Below the pieces are notes generated by a model. It was not told the origin of the DNA. It saw nothing but the letters and a program-made list of their open reading frames with translations, and searched no databases. 49,464 bases of DNA from a bacterium (GTDB lineage: Bacteria; Actinomycetota; Acidimicrobiia; Spongiisociales; Spongiisociaceae). Made by a program: the position numbers and the translations under genes. Position 1 is the first letter of the stretch, and each line of letters starts with the position of its first letter. Below, piece after piece: positions 20,733-45,683 of the stretch. The DNA is taken from NCBI GenBank assembly GCA_028821235.1, contig JAPPGV010000026.1, positions 1 through 49,464 of the forward strand, in the 5' to 3' direction.

Positions 20733-20754
20733 CCAACTAGCAACTAGCAACTAA
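20733..20754 (-). repeat. TAGTTGC heptamer repeat at the end of the epimerase gene
   Basis: Three tandem heptamers on the minus strand (TAGTTGC, TAGTTGC, TAGTTGG). The first supplies the TAG stop codon (20753-20751) of the epimerase gene. The same unit is found at 40459-40479 and 47445-47472. A further seven-base pattern, ACTGGCC/ACTGACC, lies next to it (20704-20724) and recurs at 32413-32428. Confidence 0.8.
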
Positions 20755-23050: not shown

Positions 23051-23051
23051 G

Positions 23052-24464: not shown

Positions 24465-24496
24465 GGGAGGACAGCCGATGTTACTCAGCCCGGCTG

Positions 24497-24685
24497 TCAT
24501 CCACAGCACGCATCCATGGATGGCCCGGACCACGGATGGCCCGACCCTGCCACCTCCCCGATGACCTCGCCCTTGCGTTCCTTGCAGTCCGGACACACCC
24601 AGACTGCCGGCACCCTGGCGCCTTCCACCACCAGCGTGCGGTACTCGTGACCGCAGTCAGGGCAGGCGATCAGCAGAACCGGCAC
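24497..24685 (-). CDS. small zinc-ribbon protein, 62 residues
   Basis: Two CPDC knuckles (CPDCGHEYRT near residue 8 and CPDCKERKG near residue 31) form a likely zinc ribbon; the C-terminus ends DACCG. The start is GTG at 24685, preceded by GGAGGGA, and lies inside the last 29 bases of the upstream lyase gene, so it is the last member of that operon. Its function is unknown. Because it accompanies the putative coenzyme M genes it could deliver sulfur or metal, or bind the enzymes, but the sequence alone does not show this. Confidence 0.65.
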   Translation of the reverse strand: MPVLLIACPDCGHEYRTLVVEGARVPAVWVCPDCKERKGEVIGEVAGSGHPWSGPSMDACCG

Positions 24686-26213
24686 GGCTCCCTCCCCCTC
24701 CGCCTGTTCGGCTCTGCGCCAGGGCAGTGGCCTCGGTGATCAGGGAATCCCTGGCCGCGTCCTGGGCCGCTCGCGATGCTGTCCCCCATTCCCGGGAATG
24801 CCGTACCCGCAGTGACACCGACGCGCAGTGCTCGAGAACCCGGCGGGGCGCCGATCCGCCGATCGAGTCCCGGGAGGCGACCATGGCCGCCACGTCGTCC
24901 ATTTCCGGCTCCGACTTCGCCGGAACGGACCCGGTCGGCTCAAACCCGGCAGCGCGGGCCGCTTCGGCCAGACGGGCGGCCGAGACCTGCTCCTCCCCCG
25001 CCCCGGCAGCTTGCGCCACCGCCCGGGCAACGACTCGATAGGCGCTCCTGTAGTCGAGACCCCCTTCCAGGACCAGACGGTCTGCCAGATCGGTCGCCGT
25101 AGTGAAGTTCGTTGCCGCGTCCTCGGCCAGCCTCGCGACGTTCACCTCCAGGGAGCCGACCACCTCGGTTGCCAGGCGCACCAGCCGGGTGGCGAGTTCC
25201 ACCGCTCCCACCACCTCCCCGTACAGGTGGAGCCAGTTGTCGGTTCTGGCGGATGGAGTCCGCTGGGTGACCATCAGTCCGGTGACCCTGCCGATGAGGG
25301 TTCCGCAGCCGCCGCGGATCACCGCGAGAGCGTAGGGGTTGCGCTTCTGCGGCAAGAGCACTGACGCCCGCGACGACGATCCCCCCAAGGTCACGTAGCC
25401 GAACTGCGGGCTGGCAAAGATCTCGAGGTCCTCGGCCAGGCGATCGACCGCCAGTGCCGCCTGCATGGCTGCCACACCACAGTCGATCATCGGATCACCC
25501 GACCACATGCCGTCGCGGATGTGGGCGGTGGGCTGGTCGAAGCCCTGCCGCGCCGCCATGCGGGAGCGGTCCACCGGAATCGGCGTTCCGCCGACACCGC
25601 CGGACCCTGCGGGTGATTGGTTGATCAGCCGGTAGCAATGGCGGACCCGGTCGAGGTTCCGGATGCCCTGCTCGGCGAAGCCGGCCAGATAGTGGCCGAA
25701 TGTCGACGGCTGGGCGGGCTGCAGATAGGTGGTGTCGTTCCACAGCGCATCCGCCAACTCTTCGGACCGCCTGACCAGCACCTCGGTGCACGCGGCAACC
25801 GCTTCATGGAGCGCCAGGAGCCGGTCCCGGAGCGCCAGGCGGATGGCGATGCGTCCGGCTTCCCGCCTGGTACGGCCGGTCGGCAGCCATCCGGCCCGGG
25901 ATCCCAGGCGGCGCTCGAGCTCCCGTTCCCGGCTGTTGTAGGCGTCCCCGTAGACCGGATCGTAAGGGAAGGAAGCAGGATCGGTGTCCAGGAAGTCGAG
26001 CAGCTCCCGGCAGAGCGCCGCCGCCGCCGCCTTTGGCGCCACGCCGGCCGCGACCAGCTCGATAACGTGGCTGAGGTCGGCCAGGCACAAGCCCTCGTGA
26101 AGGATGGCGGCGTCCGCCACCTCGAGGCGGTAACCGGCCGCCACCAGCTCCGGGGATGGGCCTGATCCGAGCGGCCCATCCGCTCCCAGATAGCCCTCGG
26201 GCGGCTGGATCAT
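24657..26213 (-). CDS. aspartase/fumarase-superfamily lyase (ArgH-like), probable coenzyme M synthesis
   Basis: 518 residues from the ATG that overlaps the PLP-enzyme stop; an upstream extension of the frame only mirrors that enzyme. Superfamily regions are visible: DTTYLQPAQPSTFGHYL (the TxxQxAQP type), and the flexible loop ending in LLPQKRNP. In this loop the usual GSSxMP is ASVLLP, so Ser284 stays but the second Ser, normally the catalytic one, is Val285. In the bacterial CoM operon of Xanthobacter two such lyases (XcbC1, XcbD1) perform phosphate elimination and a decarboxylation-type step. The present gene best matches the ArgH-annotated one (XcbD1) by context. Housekeeping argininosuccinate lyase is unlikely given the lost residue and neighbours. 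Confidence 0.68.
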   Translation of the reverse strand: MIQPPEGYLGADGPLGSGPSPELVAAGYRLEVADAAILHEGLCLADLSHVIELVAAGVAPKAAAAALCRELLDFLDTDPASFPYDPVYGDAYNSRERELERRLGSRAGWLPTGRTRREAGRIAIRLALRDRLLALHEAVAACTEVLVRRSEELADALWNDTTYLQPAQPSTFGHYLAGFAEQGIRNLDRVRHCYRLINQSPAGSGGVGGTPIPVDRSRMAARQGFDQPTAHIRDGMWSGDPMIDCGVAAMQAALAVDRLAEDLEIFASPQFGYVTLGGSSSRASVLLPQKRNPYALAVIRGGCGTLIGRVTGLMVTQRTPSARTDNWLHLYGEVVGAVELATRLVRLATEVVGSLEVNVARLAEDAATNFTTATDLADRLVLEGGLDYRSAYRVVARAVAQAAGAGEEQVSAARLAEAARAAGFEPTGSVPAKSEPEMDDVAAMVASRDSIGGSAPRRVLEHCASVSLRVRHSREWGTASRAAQDAARDSLITEATALAQSRTGGGGGSRAGSADRLP

Positions 26214-27157
26214 GCCGCCGAACTCCCGTGGAAGAGGTTCAGGGTTCCGCCGGTGACCAGGAACAGCACCGGCCCCCGGACCTCGCCGGCCTGCCGGATG
26301 AGGTCGGCCAGCGCGCAGGAGCCGTACTCGGGATCGAGGAAGACGCCTTCCGTGCTGGCCATCAGCCTGGCGGCGGCGTCGACCTCCAGAGGGTCGGGGT
26401 CCAAGTGGTCGGTGACCTGCCACCGGACCGGGTACCGGTGAGCCACTTCCAGGATGTCGAGGGAGGCCTCGGATATGTCCTCGATACGGCGCTGGCACTC
26501 CTCGATGGGGCGATGGACCGCCGCGCCCACCACCCGCGGGCCGCCGGCCCGCCGCCGGTAGCCGGCCACCAGGCCGGCCATCGTGCCGCACGATCCCGCC
26601 GCCAGCCACATTGCCTCGAACCGGACTCCTGCCCCTTGCGCCTGGTCATCGATCTCGTCGACCGCGGCGACGTACCCCAGTGCCCCGACCGGACCGGCGC
26701 CGCCCCGGCCCACCACGTATGGACGGCGACCCTCTTCCCGCAGGCACGCTTCCACCCGGTCGAGGAGCGGATCGACGGAGGCTCGCACCGGGCTACCGGT
26801 GAAGCGGATCCGTAGGTTGTCCAAGCGGTCGAGCAGGTCGACCCCGCTGGTGCCTGCCGGTGGCCGGTCTCCGAACAGCACCAGTTCGCAATCGAGGCCT
26901 CTGGCGGCCGTGGCGGCGGCCGCGGCCAGGACCCAGTTGGAACGCGGTCCTCCGCCGGTCACGAACACGTCGGCGCCGGCCTCGCGGCAGGCGCCCATAT
27001 GGAACTCGATCGCCCGGGCCTTGTTGCCACCCAGGCCGACACCGGTCAGGTCGTCCCGCTTCAGCCAGATCGACGAGCCGAGTTCCTCGGAGAGCCGGGG
27101 CGCGAACGTGAGCGGCGTCGGCAGGTTCGCCAGGGCTATCCGAGCGGGGGCGGTCAA
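26210..27157 (-). CDS. xcbE1: D-cysteine desulfhydrase-like PLP enzyme, probable XcbE1-type
   Basis: Fold-type II PLP enzyme, 315 residues. It has the N-terminal TPLTFAPRLSEELGSSIWLKRDD, the PLP-lysine motif GLGGNKARA (Lys46), and a phosphate-binding AAGSCGTMAGLV. Related enzymes are D-cysteine desulfhydrase and ACC deaminase. In the known bacterial coenzyme M pathway a member of this family performs the thiolation step, so I propose that role. The start is TTG overlapping the stop of the upstream lyase (TTGA), and its stop overlaps the next lyase start. This close packing with two fumarase-superfamily genes is the main argument for CoM synthesis over amino acid degradation. Confidence 0.72.
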   Translation of the reverse strand: MTAPARIALANLPTPLTFAPRLSEELGSSIWLKRDDLTGVGLGGNKARAIEFHMGACREAGADVFVTGGGPRSNWVLAAAAATAARGLDCELVLFGDRPPAGTSGVDLLDRLDNLRIRFTGSPVRASVDPLLDRVEACLREEGRRPYVVGRGGAGPVGALGYVAAVDEIDDQAQGAGVRFEAMWLAAGSCGTMAGLVAGYRRRAGGPRVVGAAVHRPIEECQRRIEDISEASLDILEVAHRYPVRWQVTDHLDPDPLEVDAAARLMASTEGVFLDPEYGSCALADLIRQAGEVRGPVLFLVTGGTLNLFHGSSAA

Positions 27158-28500
27158 CCGGCCGCCCTTATCACCCGGTCCACGAACCGGGGCCCCGCAC
27201 CCATTACCCGGCCGAGGTCGGCCTGCTCCTCGATGTCCGACCGGCTCAGGTGGGCGGGAATCCGAGGATCGCGCATGAGCGCTTCGGTAAACGGGAGCCC
27301 CTCCTCGACGCCCCGCATGGCCGCCTCGTACACGATGTCGTGGGCGGTGTGCTTACCGACCCGGTCGGCCAGCAACCGCATGACCGGCTCGGCGAACACG
27401 GATCCCCCGCGGGCATCGATGTTGGCCCGCATCCGCTCTGCGTCGGCCTCGAGGCCCTCCACCAGCATCACCGCGTAGCGGGTGGCCGAGAGGGTCAGGG
27501 CTGCCGCCTCGGGGAGGGCGATCCACTCGGCCTTCCACGCTCGACCGTCCCGCTCGTGGAGCTGGATCATCGACTCGGTCATGACGGAGGCACCCGCGCG
27601 CACCAGCCTGGCCAGCGTGTCCAGGTGCTCCGACAACTCCGGGTTGCGCTTCTGGGGCATGGTGATGCTCCCCACGGTGCCCTCGATGAAGGGCTCCCGG
27701 ACCTCTCCTATCTCCAACCGCTGCAGCTCCATGATCTCGTTGCCGATCTTGGCGATGGTGGTAGCGACCATCGCCAGCAGGTGCACGAACTCGGCGGGTC
27801 CGTCCCTACTGGTGATCCAGGGGATCGAGGGAACGCCCAGATCCATCCGGCGGGCGAAGGCGTCCAGCAGATCGAGCGCCTGCTCGCCCCAGAACTCCAG
27901 CGTGCCGAGAGCGCCGCCCAACTGGACCACCTCCCATCGACTCCGCCCGTCCGCGAGCCGCTGCCGGTGCCTGCCCAGCTCCGCCGCCCAGACGGCCGTC
28001 TTGAAACCGAACGGGATGGGCAGGCCCGGCTGGGCGTGCGTGCGACCCATCATCGGGGTGGTGCGATGATCACGGGCCAGCACCAAGGCAGCGGCCTCCA
28101 GGCGGGCCAGGTCCCTCTCCAGCAGATCGCCGACGGATCGCATCACCGTGGCGGTCCAGGTGTCGGTCAGGTCCTGGACCGTTGCGCCGTAGTAGACCCA
28201 TTCCCGGGCGGGCTCCGGGAGGGTGGCTCGCAACACCCGGATCAGGCCCAGGGTGGAGTGGCCGGTCGCCCGGGTCTCCGTGGCGATGCGGTCCAGGTCG
28301 ATCTCGGCCCCGGTGGCATGGTCCCTGATGTGCCGGGCGGCCCCTGCCGGCACCAGGCCGACCTCGGCCTGGGCCTCGGCGAGGGTGGCGAGAATGTCAA
28401 GCCAGGCCCGGAAGCGGGACTCCTCCCCCAGGATGGACCGGGCCTCTTCGGTACTCCACAGGTGCCCGTAGACGACGGAGTCGCCCAGGTGGATGCTCAT
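27154..28500 (-). CDS. aspartase/fumarase-superfamily lyase (PurB/CMLE-like), probable coenzyme M synthesis
   Basis: 448 residues. The three superfamily regions are present: WVYYGATVQDLTDTW, MMGRTHAQPGLPIPFGFK, and the signature GSITMPQKRNPELSEHL. The normal GSSxMP is GSITMP: Ser278 stays but the position of the catalytic second serine is Ile279. The protein resembles adenylosuccinate lyase or carboxymuconate cycloisomerase, yet sits in an operon with a PLP enzyme and a second lyase. The Xanthobacter XcbC1 protein, also of this superfamily, eliminates phosphate from phosphosulfolactate to give sulfoacrylate; this gene is the better candidate for that step. ATG 28500 overlaps the preceding stop codon. 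Confidence 0.68.
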   Translation of the reverse strand: MSIHLGDSVVYGHLWSTEEARSILGEESRFRAWLDILATLAEAQAEVGLVPAGAARHIRDHATGAEIDLDRIATETRATGHSTLGLIRVLRATLPEPAREWVYYGATVQDLTDTWTATVMRSVGDLLERDLARLEAAALVLARDHRTTPMMGRTHAQPGLPIPFGFKTAVWAAELGRHRQRLADGRSRWEVVQLGGALGTLEFWGEQALDLLDAFARRMDLGVPSIPWITSRDGPAEFVHLLAMVATTIAKIGNEIMELQRLEIGEVREPFIEGTVGSITMPQKRNPELSEHLDTLARLVRAGASVMTESMIQLHERDGRAWKAEWIALPEAAALTLSATRYAVMLVEGLEADAERMRANIDARGGSVFAEPVMRLLADRVGKHTAHDIVYEAAMRGVEEGLPFTEALMRDPRIPAHLSRSDIEEQADLGRVMGAGPRFVDRVIRAAG

Positions 28501-29435
28501 CCGGCGGGAACGAGCGCGTCAAGGCCCACCAGCAACCGCAATGCCTGCCTCACCTCGTCGAGGTTGGCACCCCACGGCACCACCGCCCGGTTGCCGTCGA
28601 ACTCCACGCCCCGCTCCAGCATGCAGCACTTGATGAGCCAGCGACCATCCGGGCGGGCTTCCTCGACCCGCCGCTTGGGGCAGATGTCGACCTGGGTCGG
28701 TTCGCTGCCGTAGAAGTGACGGTGGAATTGCATCGAGCGCTCGCAGCCGATCATCACCCACTCATCGGGCGCCGGCGGCCGGGTGTCGAGATATGCCATG
28801 TCGGCTGCCAACTCGGTGCCGGCCCCGCGGCACGGGAGAAGGTAGGAGTCCGACGGGGCCGTAGCAGCCAGATCGTCGAAGGTGACCGCGTCAAGGACCA
28901 GGTCCACGGGTGGCATGTCCTCATCGAACTCCACCACCTGCCGGGCCTGGTCCAGCAACTTGGGCGGCAGGGGCGGGGTCACCTCGGTTACGAACACGCG
29001 CACCGGATCGGGCTCCCAGATGAAGTTGATGTGCTCGAACCGGCCCTTCACCACGAAGGCGGAGACGCCGGGGCGTCCATGGCTGATCGCCGCCCCGGCC
29101 AGGGCGGTGGCGTTCCCCACGTCAATCGTGGGATCCTCGATCAGCTGGGTGCGGTCGGGGCCCGACCAGACCTCGACATCCACCACCGGCACGAACAACT
29201 CGTCCGAAGCGGCCCGCGCCACCGCCGCCAGGCCCACCGCTTCGTCGTGGATGAGGGCGATGTAGTCGGTGCGCCGGTAGACCTCCCGCCCGCTGAGGTA
29301 CTCCCGCATGAAGTCGGGTTGCGGATCCTCGTCCACATGCTGGACCGACAATCCCCGGTAGGGATGGGCGCGGGCGTTGGCTGACGGTTGCTCGGCTGCC
29401 GCCGTGCTCGTGACGGTCCCGGATTCGGCGCGCAT
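28497..29435 (-). CDS. conserved-looking protein of unknown function, first gene of the CoM-type operon
   Basis: 312 residues; I do not recognise the family. There is no signal peptide, membrane helix or Rossmann GxGxxG. Notable stretches are EYLSGREVYRRTDYIALIHDEAVG, FVVKGRFEHINFIWEPDPVRV, QFHRHFYGSEPTQVDICPKR and RWLIKCCMLERGVEFDG, with three Cys in the last 70 residues. A TAGAAT -10 box lies six bases before the ATG, so this is the first gene and probably leaderless. Four genes follow with overlapping starts and stops. It may supply a step not covered by the lyases and PLP enzyme, for example the final reduction, or it may act as a scaffold. Confidence 0.7.
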   Translation of the reverse strand: MRAESGTVTSTAAAEQPSANARAHPYRGLSVQHVDEDPQPDFMREYLSGREVYRRTDYIALIHDEAVGLAAVARAASDELFVPVVDVEVWSGPDRTQLIEDPTIDVGNATALAGAAISHGRPGVSAFVVKGRFEHINFIWEPDPVRVFVTEVTPPLPPKLLDQARQVVEFDEDMPPVDLVLDAVTFDDLAATAPSDSYLLPCRGAGTELAADMAYLDTRPPAPDEWVMIGCERSMQFHRHFYGSEPTQVDICPKRRVEEARPDGRWLIKCCMLERGVEFDGNRAVVPWGANLDEVRQALRLLVGLDALVPAG

Positions 29436-29447
29436 GGGGTGATTCTA
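29436..29447 (-). promoter_or_regulatory. -10 box of the CoM-type operon
   Basis: Minus-strand TAGAAT (29447-29442), then CACCCC, then the ATG at 29435. This is the same spacing and box as at 5112, and implies a leaderless message. The -35 region is not recognisable. Confidence 0.5.
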
Positions 29448-29490
29448 GGAGAACCACGCCCCTCCCGGCGGCCCGGTCCACGGCCTAGGT

Positions 29491-29658
29491 CTAGTGGTCT
29501 GTCTGTGTAATGGCGGTGTGGTATGGCGAGGCAGCGGTGTTCCTCGCAAGGCCCGGTGACGAAGGCGTACCCGCAGCGGTACGTTGAGGAAGCGGAACGC
29601 AGCGACGGGGCGCCGATGGTCGCCAGAGCACCCGGTTGTTTCGCAGACAGACCACTAG
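29491..29658. repeat. 168-bp element with 15-bp perfect inverted ends
   Basis: CTAGTGGTCTGTCTG (29491-29505) and its exact reverse complement (29644-29658) flank about 140 bases of non-coding sequence. A shortened relative lies at 11168-11223. CTAG at both edges could be a target duplication, but it is palindromic, so this cannot be decided. The right arm overlaps the stop codon of the small membrane protein gene. It is likely a MITE-like remnant or a structured RNA; no transposase is nearby. Confidence 0.6.
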
Positions 29659-29873
29659 GTCTGGGACAGTGCCTGGAAAGCCGAGAGCACGATCGCTGTA
29701 GCGATCCCGACAGTGGATACGAACATGCCCAGGATCCAGCATGTCGATATGGTGATCCTCCGCTCCACAGTGAGCAGGGCGTCGGCTAGATCCGTACGGT
29801 TCTCGGCCTTCACCACGTCGTCCTTGGCGTCCACTAGGTCGACGAACCCTTCGGGGTATGACGTCGTTGCCAT
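29655..29873 (-). CDS. small membrane protein, 72 residues
   Basis: The start ATG at 29873 has AAGGAGAACCC upstream, a good ribosome binding site. Residues 1-40 are charged and helical (VDLVDAKDDVVKAENRTDLADALLTVERR), and residues about 41-66 form one membrane helix (ISTCWILGMFVSTVGIATAIV). This coiled-coil plus tail-anchor design is seen in many small proteins of unknown role, for example holin-like or CCDC90-like proteins. The stop codon TAG lies inside the right arm of the inverted-repeat element, suggesting that the element landed at or replaced the end of the gene. Confidence 0.6.
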   Translation of the reverse strand: MATTSYPEGFVDLVDAKDDVVKAENRTDLADALLTVERRITISTCWILGMFVSTVGIATAIVLSAFQALSQT

Positions 29874-30050
29874 GGGTTCTCCTTCCAACGGCCGGCGCGC
29901 CACCCCCGGCCGAGACCCGTCTTACGTTCCCGTCGCTTAAACAACGGAACAAAGCGTACCACAGTTGGAAGCCCGCCACCAGCCCGCAGGGGTGCCGAGC
30001 GTGGTCGAGTCATGAAGAACCCCGATCTGCCACAGCCGCCGGGTGTTGCA

Positions 30051-30086
30051 CCCAGGGCCGCCCCGGAGGGGACGGCCCTGGCTGGG
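30051..30086 (-). terminator. hairpin downstream of xecA
   Basis: CCAGGGCCG-CCCC / GGGG-A-CGGCCCTGG forms a stem of 13 pairs with one bulged A and a three-base loop. It lies 12 bases past the xecA stop on its strand. There is no U run, but the stem is strong. Confidence 0.6.
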
Positions 30087-30097
30087 TCTTGGTTCTG

Positions 30098-31204
30098 CTA
30101 GCCCAGTTCGCTGCGAACGATCTCCGCTCCCGAGACCATCGCGTGGAGCTTGTCCTGGGCGATGTAGCGCTGCAGGAGGATGAGCCCGCAGTCCGTGGTC
30201 ACGCCCAACTGGTTGGCCGGCACGTACTCGAGCAGCCGCCGGATCCGGCCGGCTACCTGCTCGGCCGTCTCGGTGATCGTCGACTTGACGTCGATCACAC
30301 CCGCCCAGAACTGGATGTTCTCGGGAACCGGATTGTCCCGGATCACCTCGAGCCCGGACAGGTCGTCCGAGCGCCGCCCGCAGTTCTCGAGGTTGAGGAC
30401 ATCGATGTTCGCCTCGTAGGACTTCGGGACCACCGAAGCGGTGGCAGCCGGCTCATCACCCTGGCGGATGGTCAGATCGAAGATCTCTCCGGCGCCGGCC
30501 GTGTCGTCCGGGTAGTAGGCCGGGGTGCCGCCCCAGTTGCCCCAGCAGATGTGGACGATGATCTTGGCGTTCTGGACGCCCTCCACGGCCCGGTCGAAGG
30601 CCTCGATGGCCCACGGTTCGTAGAAATACGGCCAGGTGAACTCGTCGAGCTGGATGAAGTCGATCCCCATGGCGTCGACCTCGAGGATGTCCTCGTTGAC
30701 CGCCGCGGCGATGTCCATGGCCCGCTCCGCGGGATCCTCGTAATGGAGGTCGTTGGTGGCCTGGGCAAGGACCTGGATACCGGTGTACTGGACCTTGGTG
30801 GCCTTGTTGGTGGCCTGCTTCAGGGCCCGGGCCTGCTCGACCATGATGGCGCCCCGCCGCTTGACCTCCTGGGTGAGGGTGCCGGCATGGAGGCGGCTGT
30901 AGATCGGGAACCCGAGGAAGCCACCCTTCAGGTCGTATCCGAGCCGCTTGTAGTAGTAGTAGAGGGCCTGATCGGCGTAGTTGTCGCCGTGGAGCCGCCC
31001 ATCGGTGATGATGTCGAGACCGGCGTTCTCCTGGTCCCTGGCCAGGGCGCCCACCGCATCCTCCAGCGCCTCCCGGATGTAGGCATCCGGCGGCTCCTGG
31101 TCCCCGGTCCAGTCCCGCACGCAGTTGGCGTCCCACCACCTCGGATTGGGGTAGTTCCCGACCATCGAGGTCGGGATCATGACCTCTTGACCCTTGATCT
31201 GCAT
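30098..31204 (-). CDS. xecA: epoxyalkane:coenzyme M transferase (MetE-fold)
   Basis: Opens an epoxide with the thiolate of coenzyme M to give a hydroxyalkyl-CoM. The 368-residue protein is a single cobalamin-independent methionine synthase-type barrel, close in length to Xanthobacter EaCoMT (about 377). Zinc ligands are visible: His and Cys in HICWGNWGG, Glu in NLENCGR and Cys in TTDCGL. It lacks the N-terminal half of a true MetE. Other clues are GNYPNPRWW and the neighbouring xecD and xecE. The ATG has GGAGGGA upstream. A MetE-like methyltransferase for some other thiol is the main alternative, but the full pathway context argues for EaCoMT. Confidence 0.83.
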   Translation of the reverse strand: MQIKGQEVMIPTSMVGNYPNPRWWDANCVRDWTGDQEPPDAYIREALEDAVGALARDQENAGLDIITDGRLHGDNYADQALYYYYKRLGYDLKGGFLGFPIYSRLHAGTLTQEVKRRGAIMVEQARALKQATNKATKVQYTGIQVLAQATNDLHYEDPAERAMDIAAAVNEDILEVDAMGIDFIQLDEFTWPYFYEPWAIEAFDRAVEGVQNAKIIVHICWGNWGGTPAYYPDDTAGAGEIFDLTIRQGDEPAATASVVPKSYEANIDVLNLENCGRRSDDLSGLEVIRDNPVPENIQFWAGVIDVKSTITETAEQVAGRIRRLLEYVPANQLGVTTDCGLILLQRYIAQDKLHAMVSGAEIVRSELG

Positions 31205-31386
31205 GTTCCCTCCATTCGAGAGAATCTCCGAGTCGCCCTCGGCGCGACCCGTCGGCCGGGCCCTGCAAGCTTCCCTTGTAGCCGACAGTCCACTGGCATG
31301 GACCCGTATAGGGCGAGAGTAGCAATGTGCCGGAAACGCGGTCGAGCGGTCTCGGGAAGGTGCTCAGAAGATATAGAGCGCGGTCG

Positions 31387-31456
31387 ACCCGCGATGTCAC
31401 GACCTGGGGTTTGGTTGTGGACTATCGGGCTAACGCGGACCTTCTCGATGCTCTTC
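31387..31456 (+). repeat. copy A of a 70-bp dispersed repeat
   Basis: Read on the plus strand, this stretch matches the minus strand of 41411-41480 throughout, including ATCGGGCTAACGCGGAC against ATCGGGCCAACCGGAC. It ends at the xecD stop codon. Copies B (33221-33290) and C (41411-41480) are in the opposite orientation. This copy is the most diverged. Confidence 0.6.
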
Positions 31457-32196
31457 TAGCGGAGCGACCAGCCTCCGTCCACGACCAGGCCGTGGCCGGT
31501 CATGTAGGAGAGGCGGCCGGACGCCAGGAGGGTGATCGCCTCGGCGATCTCCTCGGGCTGGGCTACCCGGCCGACGGGGATGCTGGTCTCGATGGCCGAC
31601 CGGAGCTCGGGCTGGTCGAGCCGCCACTTGGTCATCGGAGTCTCCGCCATGCCGGGACACACCGCGTTGGACCGGATGCCGTCCCCGGCGTAGTCCAGGG
31701 CAATCGAGCGGGCCAGCAGCAGCGCCGCCGCCTTCGAGACCGAGTACGCGGAGCGGGACGGGAACGGATCCATCCCGGCCACCGAAGCCACCGTGATTAT
31801 GTGACCGGACCGGCGGGGAACCATCGAGGAAAGGGCGGCGCGCGAGCACAGGTAGGCGCCCCGCACGTTGACCCCCATGACCCGGTCCCACTCCTCGACC
31901 GGGGTCTCGTGGAGGCGGGTGGCCGCCAAGGATCCGGTGATCCCGGCGTTGTTGACCAACACGTCGACCGGGCCAAGCGTCTCCTCGACGGCGGCGAAGG
32001 CCGCCGAGACCTCGCCTGCCACGGCTACGTCCACTCCCAGCCCCAGTCCATCGCCCGCGGCTTCGGAGGCGCCGGAAGGATCGAGGTCGAAGACACCCAG
32101 CCGGAACCCCTCGCTCCGGAGGCGCTCGCATGTTGCCAGCCCTATGCCCGACCCACCTCCCGTCACCACGGCCACACCCGGCGCCCGGTCCGCCAT
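31456..32196 (-). CDS. xecD: R-2-hydroxypropyl-CoM dehydrogenase
   Basis: NAD-dependent short-chain dehydrogenase oxidising the R-hydroxyalkyl-CoM to the keto form. The 246-residue protein has TGGGSGIG, NNAGITGS, Tyr151 and Lys155. From memory of Xanthobacter R-HPCDH, sulfonate-binding Arg152 and Arg196 lie in FPGRSAY and TQWRLDQPE. Here the same positions, offset by four, are Arg148 in FPSRSAY and Arg192 in TKWRLDQPE, and AVCPGMAETPMTKWRLDQPE is nearly the same as in that enzyme. The ATG at 32196 follows GGAGG with five bases between. It diverges from xecE across a 250-base gap, with a possible TATCCT -10 box at 32223-32228. Confidence 0.85.
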   Translation of the reverse strand: MADRAPGVAVVTGGGSGIGLATCERLRSEGFRLGVFDLDPSGASEAAGDGLGLGVDVAVAGEVSAAFAAVEETLGPVDVLVNNAGITGSLAATRLHETPVEEWDRVMGVNVRGAYLCSRAALSSMVPRRSGHIITVASVAGMDPFPSRSAYSVSKAAALLLARSIALDYAGDGIRSNAVCPGMAETPMTKWRLDQPELRSAIETSIPVGRVAQPEEIAEAITLLASGRLSYMTGHGLVVDGGWSLR

Positions 32197-32436
32197 CCAT
32201 ACCTCCAGAGAGTCGAGACCCAAGGATACGTCTGACCGCTCCGGGAATCCTGGAGGAGCGCTGCTCGGCCCTGAACGCGCCGCCGGCCGAACCCGACCTT
32301 CCAGGGTGACCGCGACCCTTCGATCGCCATGGCCCCCAGTGACGACCGACCTGACACACGATTGGATCGAGCTGTCCGAGGAGTCGTTACTCGAAGCCGG
32401 CCAATGCCCTGCTACTGGCCACTGACCACTGCGGCG

Positions 32437-32442
32437 TATCAT
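32437..32442 (+). promoter_or_regulatory. -10 box of xecE copy 1
   Basis: TATCAT is followed by seven bases and the ATG at 32450, so the message is probably leaderless. The paralogue at 42458 has TATGAT at the same distance. The ACTGGCCACTGACC heptamer pattern lies just upstream (32413-32428). Confidence 0.5.
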
Positions 32443-32449
32443 GTCCCGC

Positions 32450-33217: not shown

Positions 33218-33220
33218 GAA

Positions 33221-33290
33221 GGTACCGAAGAATGTCCGGTTGGCCCGATGCGTCGGCTGCGAAGACCCCAATCAACGCTTCCCGGGCCGG
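33221..33290 (-). repeat. copy B of a 70-bp dispersed repeat
   Basis: It begins four bases after the xecE stop. A 24-base core (33227-33250) is identical to 41420-41443. It includes AATGTCCGGTTGGCCC and is preceded by GGTAC in both. With copy A it forms inverted flanks around the xecD-xecE pair. Confidence 0.7.
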
Positions 33291-33338
33291 CGATAGAGTC
33301 CCGTCCCCGTCCCCTCCCGCACCCGTCTAGCCGCCCGG

Positions 33339-35059: not shown

Positions 35060-37098
35060 CTCTCGACCGCGTGTTCAACCCGGCCCGGGTGGCGGTGGTG
35101 GGCGCCTCCGACCGTCCCGGCAAGGTCGGATCGGTCATCTGGCGCAACCTGGCGGCCTTCGAGGGCGAGAGAATCCCGGTCACCACCTCGGCGGACCGCG
35201 TCGGAGGCGTTCCGGCGGTCCCGAGCCTGACGGAGATAGAGGGCGAGGTCGACCTGGCGATCCTCGTGGTCCCTGCCCGGGCCGCTCCGGCCATCGCCCG
35301 CCAGGCCGCCGCCAAAGGTGTCGGCGGGATGGTGGTGCTGGCGGGCGGGTTCGCCGAGACCGGACCGGCCGGGGCTGCCCTCCAAGCCGAGCTGGTCGAG
35401 GCAGCCGGGCCGGTCCGGATCGTGGGGCCCAACTGCTTCGGGATCCAGAACATCGCGCTGGGCCTCAACGCGTCGATAACGATGGCGGGCGACATCGAGA
35501 CGGGGACGGTGGCCCTGGTCACCCAGTCGGGTGCCTACGGGATGGCGATCCACTCGCTGGCACTGGATGAGAACCTGCGCTTCGGGAAGGTGTACTCGTC
35601 AGGCAACAAGGCCGATATCGGCGACCACGAGGTGATCAGCTACCTCCATCAGGATCCCGGCACCCGCATCGTGTGCCTGCTCGCGGAGTCGGTGACCGAC
35701 GGGGCCGAGTTGGCCGCCGCCATCCGGACCGCCAGCCCGACCATGCCGGTGATCGTGACCAAGACCGGCCGCTCGGAGGCCGGGGCTCGAGCCGCGCTGT
35801 CCCACACCGGGGCCCTGGGTACCGACGACGCCGTCTTCCGGGCCGCCATGCGCCAAGCGGGGGCCATCACCGTCCGATCCGGTCTGGAGATGCTCGACGT
35901 GGCGCGGGTGCTGACCGCTCAGCCGCTCCCTCGAGGGGCCCGGGCGGCCATCATCACCAACTCGGGCGGCGTGGGCGTCGAGCTGGCCGACATGCTCGAG
36001 GATGAGGGAGTAGAGGTCCCCGAACTGTCGCCCGGCCTCCGGGATCACATCGCCGAACGGCTGCCTCCCATCGGAGGCGCCCGGAACCCGGTGGACATGA
36101 CCCCCATCTGGTCGCGCTTCGCGGAGCTCTATCCGTGGTTGACCGACACGCTGGCCCGCTCGGGCGAGATAGACCTGGTGATCCCGGTACTCCTGCAACG
36201 GGCGGCCATGGACGAGGCCACGCTGACCGGGCTGCGCGACACCGTGGCGGCGCTGAGGGCAGGAGGGAACCAGGTGCCCGTCTACTGCTGCTGGGTGACC
36301 CCGCGGGAGGCCCGCGGTAGGGCCGACGTCCTCCAGTCGGCCGGGATCCCGTGCCTGGAGTGGCCCGAGCGCGTGGCGCGAGCCGTCGGGCACGCGGTGC
36401 GCTACGCCGCCAACCGCCCGAGCATCGCCCCGCCCGTTCGGGTCGACCTCTCCGAGTCCTTCGGGCTGGCGGAAGGGCCGGTCCCGGCAACCGAGGCCGC
36501 CGCAATCCTGGCGCGCTACGGAATCAGGACCGTCGAGAGCGCGCTGTGTGCCACCGCCGACGAGGCTGTGGCGGCGGCGGAACTCCTGCCGGGTCCGGTC
36601 GTGATGAAGACCGCCGCCCCCTCGGTGGCCCACCGGACCGAGGCCGGAGGGGTCCGGATGGGCCTGGCCACCGCCGGCGACATCCGTGACGCCTACGGAG
36701 AGCTGTCAGCGCTCGGAGCCGAGGTGTTGGTCCAGCCGCGGTTGGGCGGGGTAGAGGTGGTGGTGGGCGCCCTGCGGGACCCGGTCTTCGGGCCGATGGT
36801 GATGGCCGGCCTGGGCGGGACCATGGTGGAACTGCTCGAGGACGTGGTCTTCGCGCTGGCTCCCGTGAGCAAGGCCGAGGCGATCGTGATGCTGGAGAGC
36901 CTGGCGGGCTTCCCGCTACTCGCCGGGTACAGGGGTGGACCCGAGGTTGACCTCGACGCGGTGGGAGAAGTGATAGCCGACGTGGCCCGCCTGGCCGCCG
37001 AACACCCCGAGGTGAGCGAGATCGACCTCAACCCGGTCCTGTGCACCGAGTCCGGCGCCACAGCTGTGGACTGGAAGCTCTACGTGAGCCAACCTTAG
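35056..37098 (+). CDS. acyl-CoA synthetase, NDP-forming (acetate-CoA ligase type)
   Basis: 680 residues with the fused architecture of ADP-forming acyl-CoA synthetases. It has a CoA-binding Rossmann domain (FNPARVAVVGASDRPGKVGSVIWRNL), then the succinyl-CoA ligase-like domain with TQSGAYGMAIHSLALDENLRFGKVYSSGNKADIGDHE, the phospho-histidine region ALSHTGALGTDDAVF, and a C-terminal ATP-grasp domain (VMKTAAPSVAHRTEAGGVRMGL). It could make an acyl-CoA from the acid, or run backward to make ATP. The GTG start overlaps the CoA-transferase B stop. The substrate is not visible, but beta-keto acids or propionate fit the context. Confidence 0.85.
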   Translation: MTLDRVFNPARVAVVGASDRPGKVGSVIWRNLAAFEGERIPVTTSADRVGGVPAVPSLTEIEGEVDLAILVVPARAAPAIARQAAAKGVGGMVVLAGGFAETGPAGAALQAELVEAAGPVRIVGPNCFGIQNIALGLNASITMAGDIETGTVALVTQSGAYGMAIHSLALDENLRFGKVYSSGNKADIGDHEVISYLHQDPGTRIVCLLAESVTDGAELAAAIRTASPTMPVIVTKTGRSEAGARAALSHTGALGTDDAVFRAAMRQAGAITVRSGLEMLDVARVLTAQPLPRGARAAIITNSGGVGVELADMLEDEGVEVPELSPGLRDHIAERLPPIGGARNPVDMTPIWSRFAELYPWLTDTLARSGEIDLVIPVLLQRAAMDEATLTGLRDTVAALRAGGNQVPVYCCWVTPREARGRADVLQSAGIPCLEWPERVARAVGHAVRYAANRPSIAPPVRVDLSESFGLAEGPVPATEAAAILARYGIRTVESALCATADEAVAAAELLPGPVVMKTAAPSVAHRTEAGGVRMGLATAGDIRDAYGELSALGAEVLVQPRLGGVEVVVGALRDPVFGPMVMAGLGGTMVELLEDVVFALAPVSKAEAIVMLESLAGFPLLAGYRGGPEVDLDAVGEVIADVARLAAEHPEVSEIDLNPVLCTESGATAVDWKLYVSQP

Positions 37099-37136
37099 GA
37101 GGGTCTGGGAACTCGGTTACGTAGCTCTTGCCATGC

Positions 37137-37553
37137 TCAGCGCTGCGGATCGAGGACGGACAATCCCCTGAATCCGTCTGCCCACTCGATGATCTTCCGG
37201 TCGGCGGTCGCCAGATGGAATCCGCCGATTATCGCGGTCGCCGTGATAAAGCGATCAGCGGGATCGGGATGGAACCCTTGGTCCCCCAACTCTGCAGCCC
37301 GGATAGCCACCTCATCGTCCACCGGAAGGATGTTCAAACCGTTGACTCGCAGTTTGTTGCGTAGAGACCGTGAAGGCGGAACCCTTCCGAGTCTCCCTCT
37401 CCCCTGCAACATGGCGATCTCCCAGAAAACGATCGAGGAGACCGCGACACTGCCCTCTACCCACGACGAGCCGAGCATCGACTTGAACTCTTCTCCGAGG
37501 CGATCGGAATCCATCACCGACCGAACCAGCACGTGGGTATCGAGCAGGATCAC
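37137..37553 (-). CDS. VapC-type PIN-domain toxin
   Basis: PIN-domain ribonuclease, 138 residues. Acidic residues of the active site are visible in ILLDTHVLVR, in VFWEIAML (Glu), and in PADRFITATAI; the last Asp region is HLATADRKII. The GTG start overlaps the antitoxin stop (GTGA). The pair lies convergent to the acyl-CoA synthetase and divergent from xecC, in the middle of the epoxide island, which could stabilise that segment. Confidence 0.88.
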   Translation of the reverse strand: MILLDTHVLVRSVMDSDRLGEEFKSMLGSSWVEGSVAVSSIVFWEIAMLQGRGRLGRVPPSRSLRNKLRVNGLNILPVDDEVAIRAAELGDQGFHPDPADRFITATAIIGGFHLATADRKIIEWADGFRGLSVLDPQR

Positions 37554-37843
37554 TGATGGGATGGGAGATCGGGGTCCAGTACCCGGTCGGGGTTGCTGAT
37601 GGCTTCCCAGTCCTCAGCAGGCACCGCCGGAGACATGATGTCTCCTGTAATGCTCATCCGGTCCCGGAACATCCCCAGCAACGGCACAGGCTTTCGAACA
37701 GGGGCCAACCGCGACACCGGCTTGCCGTGCTTCGTGATCACTATCTCCTCGCCGGTCTCGTTCACCTCGTCCATGAGCGCCAGACACCGGTTCTTGAACT
37801 CGCCCGCCGGCATGGTCCGCCGGCTCTGACCGATACCCGACAT
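37550..37843 (-). CDS. Phd/YefM-type antitoxin
   Basis: 97 residues. The N-terminal DNA-binding half has MPAGEFKNRCLALMDEVNETGEEIVITKHGKPVSRLAPV, the standard Phd/YefM pattern, and an acidic, Pro-rich toxin-binding tail follows. The ATG at 37843 is preceded by GGAGG eight bases before. An inverted repeat at 37873-37901 upstream is a likely autoregulatory operator, with TATACT inside as a -10 box. Confidence 0.87.
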   Translation of the reverse strand: MSGIGQSRRTMPAGEFKNRCLALMDEVNETGEEIVITKHGKPVSRLAPVRKPVPLLGMFRDRMSITGDIMSPAVPAEDWEAISNPDRVLDPDLPSHQ

Positions 37844-37872
37844 GCCCGAGACCTCCTGATCGTCACACGGAG

Positions 37873-40429
<2,557 letters not shown>

Positions 40430-40458
40430 ACGCTAGCCGCTCGTCATATTGCTAACCA

Positions 40459-40479
40459 GCAACTAGCTACTAGTAACTA
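40459..40479 (-). repeat. TAGTTGC heptamer repeat at the end of the F420 oxidoreductase gene
   Basis: Minus-strand units TAGTTAC, TAGTAGC, TAGTTGC, followed by TGGTTAG. The third unit's TAG (40465-40463) is the stop codon, and the preceding units encode the C-terminal residues LVTSS. It lies between convergent genes. Confidence 0.75.
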
Positions 40480-41386
40480 ACCCTGCCAGGAGGTCCCGGG
40501 TGGCTTCGGTCCCGATCCCGGTATCGAACGGGACGGCCCATACATCGGTAGCACCGGAGTCGAACAGGGCCCGGATGCGGGATCGGACGGTCCGCGCGCC
40601 TCCCGAGATGGCCAGATCTGCCGGCCCATCCACTCCTTCGCGATCGAAGAGCCGCTGGTAGTTGACGAGATTGCCGTACATACCGAACGTCCGGTTGGCC
40701 GCGGCCCTAGCCCGGTCCCGGTCTCCGTCGACCGCGACCGGAACCCCTGCCACCACGCGGGGCGAAGCCTTCCCCGCCGCCTGCGCGCCCTCGGTGACGG
40801 CTGGTAGCACCACCTCTTCCAGGGACTTCGGTCCGGCCAACCATGTGGTCACCCCGTCGGCCAGTTCCCCGCCCAGCCGACACATCGCCGGTGCGAGGGC
40901 TCCCACAATGACCGGCACGCGGGAAGTTCCGCGCACCGTTATCGCCGCCTCGACCCGGTAGTGATCCCCGCCGAAGCTCGCCTCGCCCTCTCCTAGCAAT
41001 CCTCCCAGGACGGTCAGGTACTCACGCAGGTGGCCTACCTGGCTCGAGTAGTCGAGGCCGTGCATCCCCTCGATCACGGGACGGTGCGAGACCCCCACCC
41101 CGAGCACGAACCGCCCTCCCGACAGGGATTGGACCGTTGCCGCGGATTGCGCCAGAGCCACGGGATGGCGGGGATAGGTGGGAACCACGCCCACCCCTAG
41201 CTCGATGCGCGACGTCCGCTGTGCCGCCGCGGCCAGCATGGTCATTGAGTCGATACCCCGGCTGAAGTGGATGCACCAGGCAGAGTTGAATCCGTCCTGC
41301 TCGGCGGCGACTGCTTCGGCGACCACTTCCTCCGGGGCCCGGAAAACGCCTACGGGCTCGCCGCCGATGAGAATCGAGATGCGCAT
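40463..41386 (-). CDS. luciferase-like F420-dependent oxidoreductase
   Basis: Luciferase-like monooxygenase family, 307 residues, of the subgroup that usually uses coenzyme F420. Evidence is ILIGGEPVGVFRAPEEVVAEAVAAEQDGFNSAWCIHFSRGIDSMTMLAAAAQRTSRIELGVGVVPTYPRHPVALAQSAATVQSLSGGRFVLGVGVSHRP, where GFDS-like and GVSHRP segments are typical; the latter lies in the F420 or flavin contact region. The ATG at 41386 has AGGAGCGACCC upstream. F420 is made by the fbiAB genes in this window. A role in the epoxide island, such as oxidising or reducing an intermediate, is possible but not shown. Its C-terminus is encoded by heptamer repeat sequence. Confidence 0.8.
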   Translation of the reverse strand: MRISILIGGEPVGVFRAPEEVVAEAVAAEQDGFNSAWCIHFSRGIDSMTMLAAAAQRTSRIELGVGVVPTYPRHPVALAQSAATVQSLSGGRFVLGVGVSHRPVIEGMHGLDYSSQVGHLREYLTVLGGLLGEGEASFGGDHYRVEAAITVRGTSRVPVIVGALAPAMCRLGGELADGVTTWLAGPKSLEEVVLPAVTEGAQAAGKASPRVVAGVPVAVDGDRDRARAAANRTFGMYGNLVNYQRLFDREGVDGPADLAISGGARTVRSRIRALFDSGATDVWAVPFDTGIGTEATRDLLAGLVTSS

Positions 41387-41410
41387 GGGTCGCTCCTGCC
41401 GGTCGCCTAG

Positions 41411-41480
41411 GAGGGTACTGAAGAATGTCCGGTTGGCCCGATGGTCGGCAACGAAGTCCCCGGTTGAGGCGTCGCGGGCC
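41411..41480 (-). repeat. copy C of a 70-bp dispersed repeat
   Basis: It lies between the F420 oxidoreductase and the alpha/beta hydrolase genes. It shares a 24-base identical core with copy B and diverges gradually on both sides. Its minus-strand reading ATCGGGCCAACCGGACA corresponds to copy A. Copies B and C are in direct orientation about 8.2 kb apart. Confidence 0.7.
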
Positions 41481-41509
41481 AACCCACCCTCGTCTTTTTC
41501 AGCACCCTT

Positions 41510-42250
41510 CTATCCGAGCGTGGCGGCCAGCAAGCGCAACAGCCGGGCCAGGGTGTCGCTCGCCGCGGCGTGATGGTACGAGCCGGAGTCGTCATCGAGG
41601 TAGTCGTGACCCACGCCGTCGTACAGGATCCATCTGCCGTGAGGGTTGAGCCGCTGGGCTTCGTCGACCCCTGCGGCGGGTACCAGGTCGTCGTCCGCCC
41701 CGTAGAGACCCAGGACCGGCATGGGGAGCATCTCCAGGGCCTCGATCACCGGCAGGCGCCGCTCCTCATCGCCGGCCAGCGGTGCATACGCCACGCAGAG
41801 CGCACCTACGGCCCTCTGCCGGTGGGCCGCGTAGATGATGGCGAACCGGCCCCCCACGTCGATCCCCAACACGCCGATCCTTCCGGGACGGGCCCATCCG
41901 GCCGGGTCGGCGAACGCGAAGGCCACCGCATCGTCGATGTCCGCCAGGGCGCGGCGGTCCCGGATCCCGTGGTAGGTGGCGACCAGCTCTTCGAACGGCG
42001 CCTTGGGTCCGGGATGAGCGCCCCGGGTCAGGTCGGGGACGAGAACGGCGTATCCGTTACGCGCCAACCGGCGGGCAAGGTCCTTGACGAAGGGCGTGAT
42101 CCCCTGGAGCGGGGGCAGCATCACCACCAGCGGGTAATCGCCGATCCGGTCCGGGCGGGACAGGTAGCCGGTGGAGAACCCGGCCCCGGAGGGCATCGCG
42201 AAGTCACGATAGAGAATCTCGATCGTTCCCTCATGCTGGAGAACCGCCAT
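41510..42250 (-). CDS. dienelactone hydrolase-family protein with Asp nucleophile position
   Basis: Alpha/beta hydrolase of 246 residues. The nucleophile elbow normally reads GxCxGG in dienelactone hydrolase, but here it is GIDVGGRFA, with Asp131. The rest of the triad is present: Asp187/188 in LYGADDDLVPA and His215 in GVGHDYLDD. An Asp nucleophile is the hallmark of alpha/beta epoxide hydrolases and haloalkane dehalogenases, which is striking next to an epoxide pathway, so a hydrolase for an epoxide or a related ester is a reasonable guess. The ATG at 42250 follows CAGGAGGTGGC. An inactive scaffold protein is the alternative. Confidence 0.75.
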   Translation of the reverse strand: MAVLQHEGTIEILYRDFAMPSGAGFSTGYLSRPDRIGDYPLVVMLPPLQGITPFVKDLARRLARNGYAVLVPDLTRGAHPGPKAPFEELVATYHGIRDRRALADIDDAVAFAFADPAGWARPGRIGVLGIDVGGRFAIIYAAHRQRAVGALCVAYAPLAGDEERRLPVIEALEMLPMPVLGLYGADDDLVPAAGVDEAQRLNPHGRWILYDGVGHDYLDDDSGSYHHAAASDTLARLLRLLAATLG

Positions 42251-42444
42251 GCCACCTCCTGTACGGCCCAGGTCAGAAACGGCGAACGGTTCAATCGTAG
42301 CCAGCGGAGGGGGTACGGCTGAACCCGCCGTCTCGTAGCTCCGAGACCGCCACCGAGGCCGGCGTCCGCCGACCGGTGGACGGATCGCTTCCGGGATCGA
42401 TTCCCGGCGCGCTCAGGAAAGCCGGAGCCGCCGTCGGAAGGGCG

Positions 42445-42450
42445 TATGAT
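42445..42450 (+). promoter_or_regulatory. -10 box of xecE copy 2
   Basis: TATGAT is followed by seven bases and ATG 42458. The same layout is found in front of the copy at 32450, suggesting that the promoter was duplicated with the gene. Confidence 0.5.
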
Positions 42451-42457
42451 CACCGCC

Positions 42458-43225
42458 ATGAGACTCCGAGGACGGGCCGCTGTCATAACCGGCGCCGGGT
42501 CGGGCATCGGCCGGGCCACCGCCGAGCTGTTCGCGAGCGAGGGCGCCGGGGTTGCGATACTCGACCGCGACGGGCCGGCCGCCGAGGCCGCCGCCTCAGC
42601 CATCTCGGCCACGGGCGGGGTGGCCCATCCGGTGGTCGCCGACGTGTCTTCGCCGGACGATGTCTCCCGAGCCATTGCCAGCTCCGCCCGACTCCTCGGA
42701 CGCCTCGACATCGTCTTCAACAACGCCGGCGTAGCACCATCCGGGTCGGTTCTGGATACGGACGAGGACGAGTGGGATCGGTGCTTCGCGGTCAACGCCA
42801 AGGGCGTCTACCTCACCTCTCGGGCCGCCATCCCCCACCTGCAGGCCGCAGGCGGCGGATCGATCATCAACCAGGCATCCGTAGCCGCCATGATCGGGAT
42901 GGCAAACTTCTCCGCCTACAGCGCCGCCAAGGGTGCCGTGGTCTCTCTCACCCGTGCCATGGCGATCGACCTCGCTCCCTTTGGGATCAGGGTGAACGCC
43001 CTCTGCCCCGGCGCCGTCCACACACCGGTCATGGAGCCGCTCATGCGCAACCACGGCCGTGGCAGCCTCGAGCGGGGACTGGAGATGACGGCCGCCAAGC
43101 ACCCGATCGGGCGCCTCGGGACGCCGAGGGAGATTGCCGGCGCCGCGCTGTTCCTGGCATCGGACGACGCCGCCTTCGTCACCGGTGCCACCCTCCCGGT
43201 GGACGGTGGCAGAACCGCCTGTTAG
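42458..43225 (+). CDS. xecE: S-2-hydroxypropyl-CoM dehydrogenase-like SDR, copy 2
   Basis: 255 residues, a close paralogue of the gene at 32450 (about 75 percent identical by eye), with TGAGSGIG, NNAGVAPSG, Tyr154 in AYSAAKGAVVSL and Lys158. At the sulfonate-binding positions it also has Thr211 and Lys214 (EMTAAKHPIG). I use ATG 42458 because it lies seven bases after the TATGAT box. The two copies probably arose by duplication within the island and may differ in chain length or enantiomer preference. Differences cluster around the mid-protein substrate region (AMIGMANFSAY against ALVGIQGLAAY). Confidence 0.72.
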   Translation: MRLRGRAAVITGAGSGIGRATAELFASEGAGVAILDRDGPAAEAAASAISATGGVAHPVVADVSSPDDVSRAIASSARLLGRLDIVFNNAGVAPSGSVLDTDEDEWDRCFAVNAKGVYLTSRAAIPHLQAAGGGSIINQASVAAMIGMANFSAYSAAKGAVVSLTRAMAIDLAPFGIRVNALCPGAVHTPVMEPLMRNHGRGSLERGLEMTAAKHPIGRLGTPREIAGAALFLASDDAAFVTGATLPVDGGRTAC

Positions 43226-43269
43226 CCGGCTCAGGACACTCCTGACGGATCGTACCGCCGGAGTCGGGA

Positions 43270-43953: not shown

Positions 43954-44123
43954 CGGCAGCCGGTCCGGGTCTAAGGGTCGAGTTCGAAGGATACGCGGCG
44001 CCGGCGCCGGGCCGAACGGTGACGCGTCCGGCTCCGCGCGCGGAGAATCGTTGCGGACGTGTGTAACGCCTAACCTTGAACGCCGCCAGAGCGGCAGTAC
44101 AAACCACTGAGAGCCGGAAGACT

Positions 44124-45674: not shown

Positions 45675-45683
45675 GAGGCCCTT

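Follow-up and report, generated by a model that had tools for sequence, protein, structure and literature searches.

Bacterial pathways that use coenzyme M (CoM) to process epoxides are known mainly from alkene degraders and some methanotrophs. In Xanthobacter autotrophicus Py2, the xecACDE-xcbABCDE genes reside on plasmid pXAUT01 together with a toluene 4-monooxygenase (T4MO)-type monooxygenase; a short-chain dehydrogenase/reductase (SDR) with the tested XecE residues lies beside XecD, and an AMP-dependent synthetase and a coenzyme A (CoA) ligase are annotated upstream of the cluster. The ethene/vinyl chloride cluster of Nocardioides sp. JS614 (pNOCA01) contains an EtnE-type transferase, an aldehyde dehydrogenase, and a four-gene monooxygenase. 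No 2-ketopropyl-CoM oxidoreductase/carboxylase (2-KPCC; XecC) could be placed in the 41 kb read from JS614, where XecC aligns with a flavoprotein over 188 residues at 31% identity. In methanotrophs such as Methylohalobius crimeensis, epoxyethane clusters combine a transferase, SDR, CoA transferase pair, ligase, flavoprotein, and CoM genes and contain no alkene monooxygenase; co-oxidation by methane monooxygenase is the proposed source of the epoxide (PMC11507031). Here, a 49,464-nucleotide contig from a member of the Acidimicrobiia (family Spongiisociaceae; JAPPGV010000026.1; "the window" denotes this whole stretch) was analyzed using six-frame open reading frames and profile searches. In this uncultured actinobacterium, a chromosomal block of ~17 kb holds the predicted genes for CoM manufacture and for converting small, toxic epoxides to common metabolites, a pathway already known in itself, and the block is very probably an island encoding CoM-dependent epoxide carboxylation along with synthesis of the cofactor.

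The initial annotation had reported chromosomal CoM-synthesis and epoxide-carboxylation genes (XecA, XecC, and XecD types) together at this site; gene content and synteny agree, and profiles and solved-structure matches located XecA, XecC, a XecD-type enzyme, phosphosulfolactate synthase, and three SDR genes. The pathway genes are arranged as follows:

24589–41516, no strand: island extent, set by the break in collinearity with the same-genus genome G012
24657–26213, minus: XcbC-like lyase (aspartase/fumarase superfamily), best NCBIfam family CoM_syn_XcbC
26210–27157, minus: XcbE-like pyridoxal phosphate (PLP) enzyme, best NCBIfam family CoM_syn_XcbE
27154–28500, minus: XcbD, aspartase/fumarase-type lyase
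28497–29435, minus: XcbA (DUF7714)
30098–31204, minus: XecA, putative epoxyalkane:CoM transferase
31456–32196, minus: SDR1, XecD-like 2-(R)-hydroxypropyl-CoM dehydrogenase (start codon chosen)
32441–33217, plus: SDR2, an island dehydrogenase that is not a clear XecE
33339–34253, plus: CoA transferase subunit A (PF01144)
34250–35059, plus: CoA transferase subunit B (PF01144)
35056–37098, plus: NDP-forming acyl-CoA synthetase (ligase; Succ_CoA_lig and ATP-grasp domains)
37986–39569, plus: XecC (2-KPCC)
39566–40429, plus: XcbB, phosphosulfolactate synthase

The xcbC, xcbE, xcbD, and xcbA genes overlap at their ends on the minus strand and are followed by xecA and SDR1 on the same strand; SDR2, the CoA transferase subunits, ligase, xecC, and xcbB then run on the plus strand ahead of a luciferase-like gene on the minus strand. 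All five xcb genes are present, as in Py2, and identity to Py2 is 76% for XecA, 67% for XecC, 54% for XcbB, and 48% for the XecD-type SDR (SDR1). The Py2 cluster differs in its plasmid location, and the 41 kb read there gave no match to either the CoA transferase or the ligase of the island. Likeness to JS614 is found in XcbA (55%), XcbC (55%; 38% to Py2), XcbD (56%; 46% to Py2), XcbE (45%; 40% to Py2), both CoA transferase subunits (64%), SDR2 (60%), and the ligase (49%), whereas XecA is only 49% identical to JS614 EtnE. Clusters in Amycolatopsis sp. 2-2 (complete chromosome) and in Thermocrispum, Kineosporia, and Mycobacterium sp. SM1 (contigs) also combine XecC with SDR1 and have SDR2, CoA transferase, or xcb genes in the neighborhood.

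The block is a chromosomal island because G012 is collinear with the window on both sides (12729–24588, 89%; 41517–45678, 93%) yet lacks the intervening DNA. SDR cross-matches excepted, nothing between these stretches aligned with G012, where no xcb or xec gene was found at the site and no XecA, XecC, or XcbA match genome-wide. In G001, from another genus, LytR, hydrolase, and BirA genes are adjacent on a 3.0 Mb contig and the island is absent. SecA, phosphoglucomutase/phosphomannomutase, CofD, F420 ligase, a release factor, FtsX, and transfer-messenger RNA (tmRNA) were identified upstream in the window, in keeping with the housekeeping flanks (secA, manB, fbiAB) originally described; the tmRNA, at 41–396, was the single RNA gene found by ARAGORN. 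The system had been placed at 24497–43225. Its genes do lie there, but the island itself spans ~24589–41516, and the last two genes of that interval belong to the flank:

41510–42250: dienelactone-hydrolase-like hydrolase, outside the island
42446–43225: SDR3, outside the island

Both were rejected as island members, having 93–94% homologues at the same site in G012.

Compared with solved structures, XecC scored 795.9 bits against the Py2 enzyme (1mo9) and ~110 bits against the next family, glutathione reductase. Because of this score and the recurrence of the gene order in the family loci read, a chance resemblance is excluded. All tested residues are present in the window protein: Cys82, His84, Cys87, His137, Met140, Phe501, His506, and Gln509. 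In what we take to be the functional arrangement, Cys82-x4-Cys87 encloses His84 while Phe501 and His506 replace a His-Glu dyad. Across an 87-row alignment, with certain genomes counted twice, every one of these positions is invariant apart from 506, which is His in 71 rows and Tyr in 16; three ordinary flavoproteins from relatives' loci end with the usual HPTxxE motif. By residues and score, XecC is identified as a 2-KPCC with predicted carboxylating activity. Phylogenies were built by a quick method without bootstrap and rooted for drawing only. The lineage copy fell with Py2 2-KPCC on a mainly Pseudomonadota side (41 rows; Shimodaira-Hasegawa-like approximate likelihood ratio test [SH-aLRT] 100), and most other actinobacterial XecC, including those from the Amycolatopsis, Thermocrispum, Kineosporia, and Mycobacterium clusters, occupied the opposite side (37 rows, SH-aLRT 100).

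XecA retains the zinc ligands His218, Cys220, and Cys339, as do all 57 rows with at least 40% identity. The ligands alone do not discriminate, because all nine remoter MetE-like rows keep the same residues. In the tree, the window copy and its Py2 counterpart shared a set of 43 rows (SH-aLRT 99), separate from the six rows of EtnE (SH-aLRT 99); four XecA rows have long end branches. The ligands and the grouping with Py2 XecA together identify it as a predicted epoxyalkane:CoM transferase. Clustering of XecA and XecC away from the characterized enzymes had been named as the outcome that would speak against the initial annotation, and both group with the Py2 enzymes.

For SDR1, the best solved match was 2-(R)-hydroxypropyl-CoM dehydrogenase (2cfc, 219 bits; next, 167). 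It keeps Ser142, Tyr155, and Lys159 and both sulfonate-binding arginines (Arg152 and Arg196), and thus has the residues expected of a XecD-type enzyme; these roles, and those of XecE Arg211 and Lys214, are presumed here. The proposal of two XecE-like enzymes did not survive: SDR2 and SDR3 both have Thr at the Arg211 position, with Lys at 214, and SDR3, which the island-free G012 also has, is not an island gene. The best SDR3 match is generic, because its score with 4gh5 (192.7 bits) nearly equals that with another SDR (190.9). SDR2 partners of at least 58% identity all have Thr and Lys at 211 and 214; those of 42–50% identity (Pseudomonadota and one Chloroflexota) have Arg/Lys and Lys/Arg, respectively. 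In these residue columns, two SDR1 rows (L114 and L106) contain gaps only, and three rows of at most 45% identity in L063 and L070 fit neither pattern.

The CoM synthesis set appears complete. XcbA (NCBIfam CoM_XcbA_fam, 367.6 bits; cut-off 150), XcbB (TIGR03849, the ComA model, 296.1 bits; cut-off 280), and XcbD (CoM_syn_XcbD, 665.4 bits; cut-off 600) exceed curated cut-offs, and XcbB is the sole ComA match genome-wide. XcbC and XcbE are assigned by best family, at 399 bits (cut-off 575) and 223 bits (cut-off 450; next families, 197 and 192), respectively. The operon of two lyases and a PLP enzyme had been recognized from the outset, and it is present (24657–28500, minus strand); XcbA had been overlooked, and it is this protein that supplies the missing member. 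XcbA matched six plasmid records, from Nocardioides JS614, Mycolicibacterium NBB4 (two), Xanthobacter Py2, and Methylocystis iwaonis (two). Its structure was predicted with confidence (pLDDT 90.6), and fold searches gave no convincing relative: the first-ranked Foldseek match had E 8.1e-4 and a TM of 0.13 to the query, the best VIA match (Z 7.2, 100 residues) did not rise above the noise level that the tool describes, and a profile search of solved structures found no relative at E up to 0.1. Cysteines 202, 231, 252, 270, and 271 are invariant across 43 sequences, a hint of a metal or Fe-S site. The control genome, Methanosarcina acetivorans, also matched the XcbA family (PF24830 over the cut-off, NF052538 below it). 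In that archaeon the last CoM step is undocumented, or possibly carried out by MA3299, according to PMC12713407. In JS614, a phosphoadenosine phosphosulfate reductase gene (L083:7384-8073) adjoins xcbC and is a possible sulfite source for XcbB.

From the gene content, the family and residue tests, and the synteny, a substrate, activity, and in-cell role can be proposed. XcbB would couple sulfite to phosphoenolpyruvate, and the other Xcb enzymes would complete CoM by what are reportedly phosphate elimination, decarboxylation, thiol addition, and reduction/cleavage. With XecA, the CoM thiol would open a short 1,2-epoxide, of which epoxypropane is the likeliest; SDR1 would oxidize the R-2-hydroxyalkyl-CoM to the ketone, and XecC would use NADPH and CO2 for reductive cleavage, yielding acetoacetate (a beta-keto acid) and releasing CoM. 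Conversion of the acid to its CoA ester would fall to the CoA transferase pair, the acyl-CoA ligase, or both. In the DNA around the XecC loci (78 loci from the best 80 of 84 relatives), transferase subunit A was found at 48 and subunit B at 46.

The closeness of the CoA transferase, ligase, and SDR2 to the JS614 ethene cluster raises the alternative that the main substrate is epoxyethane or some other epoxide that yields an aldehyde, as it is in ethene/vinyl chloride degraders and in methanotrophs that detoxify co-oxidized ethene. The latter have a similar cluster lacking an alkene monooxygenase, which is proposed to act against epoxyethane (PMC11507031). The window has the XecD signature in SDR1 and a XecA of Py2 rather than EtnE type, yet the methanotroph transferases are also Py2-like (72–80% identical to that of the window). 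In a search confined to the window, the aldehyde dehydrogenase of the ethene cluster gave no match, and the JS614 flavoprotein matched only XecC itself, at 26%. These two results favor a ketone-yielding, epoxypropane-type route over an aldehyde-yielding one, and a main role with epoxyethane is considered unlikely.

The island recurs across the family. Among 15 Spongiisociaceae genomes, that of the window included, XcbA was found in 13 and XecA and XecC in 11 each; among the 10 with completeness of 90% or more and contamination of 5% or less, XecA and XecC were each found in 8. In the DNA read, nine of those 11 genomes, the window's own among them, share the order of the window (xcbA-E, XecA, SDR1, SDR2, CoA transferase, ligase, XecC); two of the nine have it split over two contigs, and G008 was read in part only. 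The same xcbA-E order also occurs in G245, from another family. A sample of 395 genomes from the class yielded 20 with XcbA, 13 of them from this family; in the phylum, 9 of 396 had an XcbA above the NCBIfam threshold. CoM epoxide carboxylation becomes a putatively fixed trait of an uncultured actinobacterial family, which raises the question of which epoxide these cells meet and yields diverged XecC, XecD, and Xcb enzymes, with a clear test of stereoisomer handling by the SDRs. The rarity of the system and the oddness of its actinobacterial, non-plasmid site had been overstated. At least 78 XecC loci, among the best 80 of 84 relatives, were present in contigs of GTDB species genomes, in methanotrophs, other Proteobacteria, and many Actinobacteria, with one on the complete Amycolatopsis chromosome; at least 15 of the 78 have XecC, XecA, and all of XcbA-E, as counted within contig ends and a 10 kb flank.

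No monooxygenase was seen among the window genes scanned, as the initial annotation had stated, and the search of the rest of the genome for a diiron enzyme that it recommended located a T4MO-type operon on another contig, C146 (G000:C146:1149-7815; L080 and L131). The operon encodes alpha, TmoB, effector, beta, and reductase components by Pfam, together with a ferredoxin whose Rieske-like motif was read from the open reading frame and whose counterpart in the Rhodococcus koreensis order is annotated as Rieske. If this enzyme made the epoxide, the strain would be a self-contained alkene oxidizer like Py2. The operon is complete, its alpha subunit resembles toluene/o-xylene monooxygenase (553 bits) and the Py2 hydroxylase (47%), and the contig correlates with the window in tetranucleotide composition (0.98; window halves, 0.99) and is syntenic with a G002 contig. 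However, PF02332 occurs in 2 of the 15 family genomes, against 11 with XecA; a neighboring C146 gene occurs in the same two, whose reported contamination is 4.99 and 8, and the segment is either accessory or shared contamination. In addition, the nearest plasmid relative of the operon (R. koreensis, 67%) has no annotated epoxide genes in the 21.5 kb read. Self-contained alkene oxidation is therefore a doubtful explanation. Two SnoaL-like genes and a DJ-1/PfpI gene precede the C146 operon, an arrangement shared with the R. koreensis plasmid. No copper-type monooxygenase of the ammonia monooxygenase or particulate methane monooxygenase type was matched across the family in a search run without a positive control and not extended to P450s or other oxygenases. 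For the epoxide-carboxylation island, the epoxide may instead come from a neighbor, a host, or another oxygenase, and the pathway may serve to scavenge or detoxify epoxides and not to support growth on alkenes.

Several observations weigh against assigning the island to complete, epoxypropane-type carboxylation. The family searches gave no consistent oxygenase, PF02332 being present in 2 of 15 genomes. The sub-threshold scores of XcbC and XcbE make these names less sure. XecC relatives also adjoin ethene-type monooxygenase genes, and the substrate therefore cannot be read from XecC by itself. The tested XecE arginine is missing from every SDR of the window, and the S-isomer may therefore not be handled. 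In G002, the locus (L118, G002:C120:2000-21999) keeps xcbA, xcbD, xcbE, xecA, and xecC and lacks xcbB and xcbC; the gaps hold other reading frames and no N. The cofactor supply of G002 is unproved, because the two missing genes were not sought in the rest of that genome.

Judged by protein identity, the island is a mosaic, with XecC and XcbB Pseudomonadota-like and the other xcb products, SDRs, and CoA transferase actinobacterial-like. When the two references were compared by blastp, XecA, XecC, and XcbB were nearest Py2, and XcbA, XcbC, XcbD, XcbE, the CoA transferase, the ligase, and SDR2/3 were nearest JS614. XcbB is 50–60% identical to 7 Pseudomonadota copies and 31–40% to 13 from a mainly actinobacterial set; the corresponding values are 39–42% (8 copies) and 52–57% (12) for XcbA, and 41–51% (12) and 31–68% (26) for SDR1. 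The lineage XecA lies within a 17-row set (SH-aLRT 98) of Actinomycetota and unassigned metagenome-assembled genomes (MAGs).

The window XecC is 99–100% identical to the copy in MAG RHO1_bin_64, and other close relatives are named CO36404bin_8, SB0661, SB0664, and APA_bin_98. Prefixes of these MAG names fit sponge species listed in PMC8163846, and on this basis the close relatives probably live in marine sponges; a text search on four of the name codes returned no sponge paper by title. A phosphosulfolactate synthase transcript was listed under methane-related genes in a sponge holobiont in 2015 (PMC4412061). No report of CoM or epoxide metabolism in sponge Acidimicrobiia was found in the open-access literature, among matches partly viewed.

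CoM genes also occur in a second setting. Operons of xcb genes ~37–48% identical to those of the window were found at L103 (G004:C4:1-20000), L104 (G005), L105 (G204), L107 (G353), L110 (G380), and L111 (G387). At L103, neighboring genes exceed NCBIfam cut-offs for the MSMEG_0565 glycosyltransferase, MSMEG_0568 radical S-adenosylmethionine, and MSMEG_0567 GNAT families; AIR-synthase-like and FdrA matches fall below cut-offs, and AllG, AllH, and carbamate kinase are also present. We take this to be a cluster of the kind called "Nit1C". Its homologues occur in L105, L110, and L111 and partly in L107; L104 (5 kb) has xcb genes only. In L110 and L111, xcbE was not found, and both carry nitrile hydratase genes. 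At L108 (G206) and L109 (G221), on short contigs, xcbB and xcbA lie together and other xcb genes could not be placed. None of the eight genomes with xcb and no xec genes at the locus (the first six, G206, and G221) has a close XecA; four have matches of 30–38% and four have none, and four are under 80% complete.

These Nit1C-linked operons suggest a second, unexplained use of CoM in bacteria. Their retention without a close XecA could mean that CoM is chiefly a general thiol, or belongs to another pathway, with XecA and XecC acting on unknown electrophiles. Those operons are only about 37–48% identical to that of the window, and most family members keep the gene order that links the island CoM genes to XecA, XecC, and SDR1; such a role for the island is improbable. 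A broader reading, offered tentatively and judged somewhat less probable than its opposite, builds on the epoxide-carboxylation island: in these probably sponge-associated Acidimicrobiia, CoM-dependent epoxide carboxylation would be a near-core chromosomal trait lacking its own oxygenase and used to feed on or neutralize epoxides from the host or other symbionts, and bacterial CoM would extend beyond epoxides. Its second part draws on the xcb operons that members of this family and class have in Nit1C-type clusters, with FdrA-, AllG-, and AllH-like genes and carbamate kinase; two of these genomes also have nitrile hydratase.

Two further features lie within the island:

37137–37846, minus: toxin-antitoxin pair (PIN toxin, Phd/YefM antitoxin) separating the ligase gene from that of XecC
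40463–41386, minus: F420-dependent luciferase-like oxidoreductase

The PIN/Phd-YefM pair is a passenger outside the pathway; among the family loci checked, a PIN homologue was found in L003 (94%) and in no other. For the luciferase-like gene, the roles of alkene oxygenase and of sulfite-releasing SsuD were both considered and set aside, since it exceeds the cut-off of an F420-dependent subfamily (TIGR03564, 284.7 bits; cut-off 234.25) and reaches 37.8 bits with the alkanesulfonate monooxygenase model (cut-off 518.2). Homologues of at least 45% identity accompany 16 of the 78 XecC loci drawn from the best 80 of 84 relatives, and 10 of these are from the window lineage or L040.

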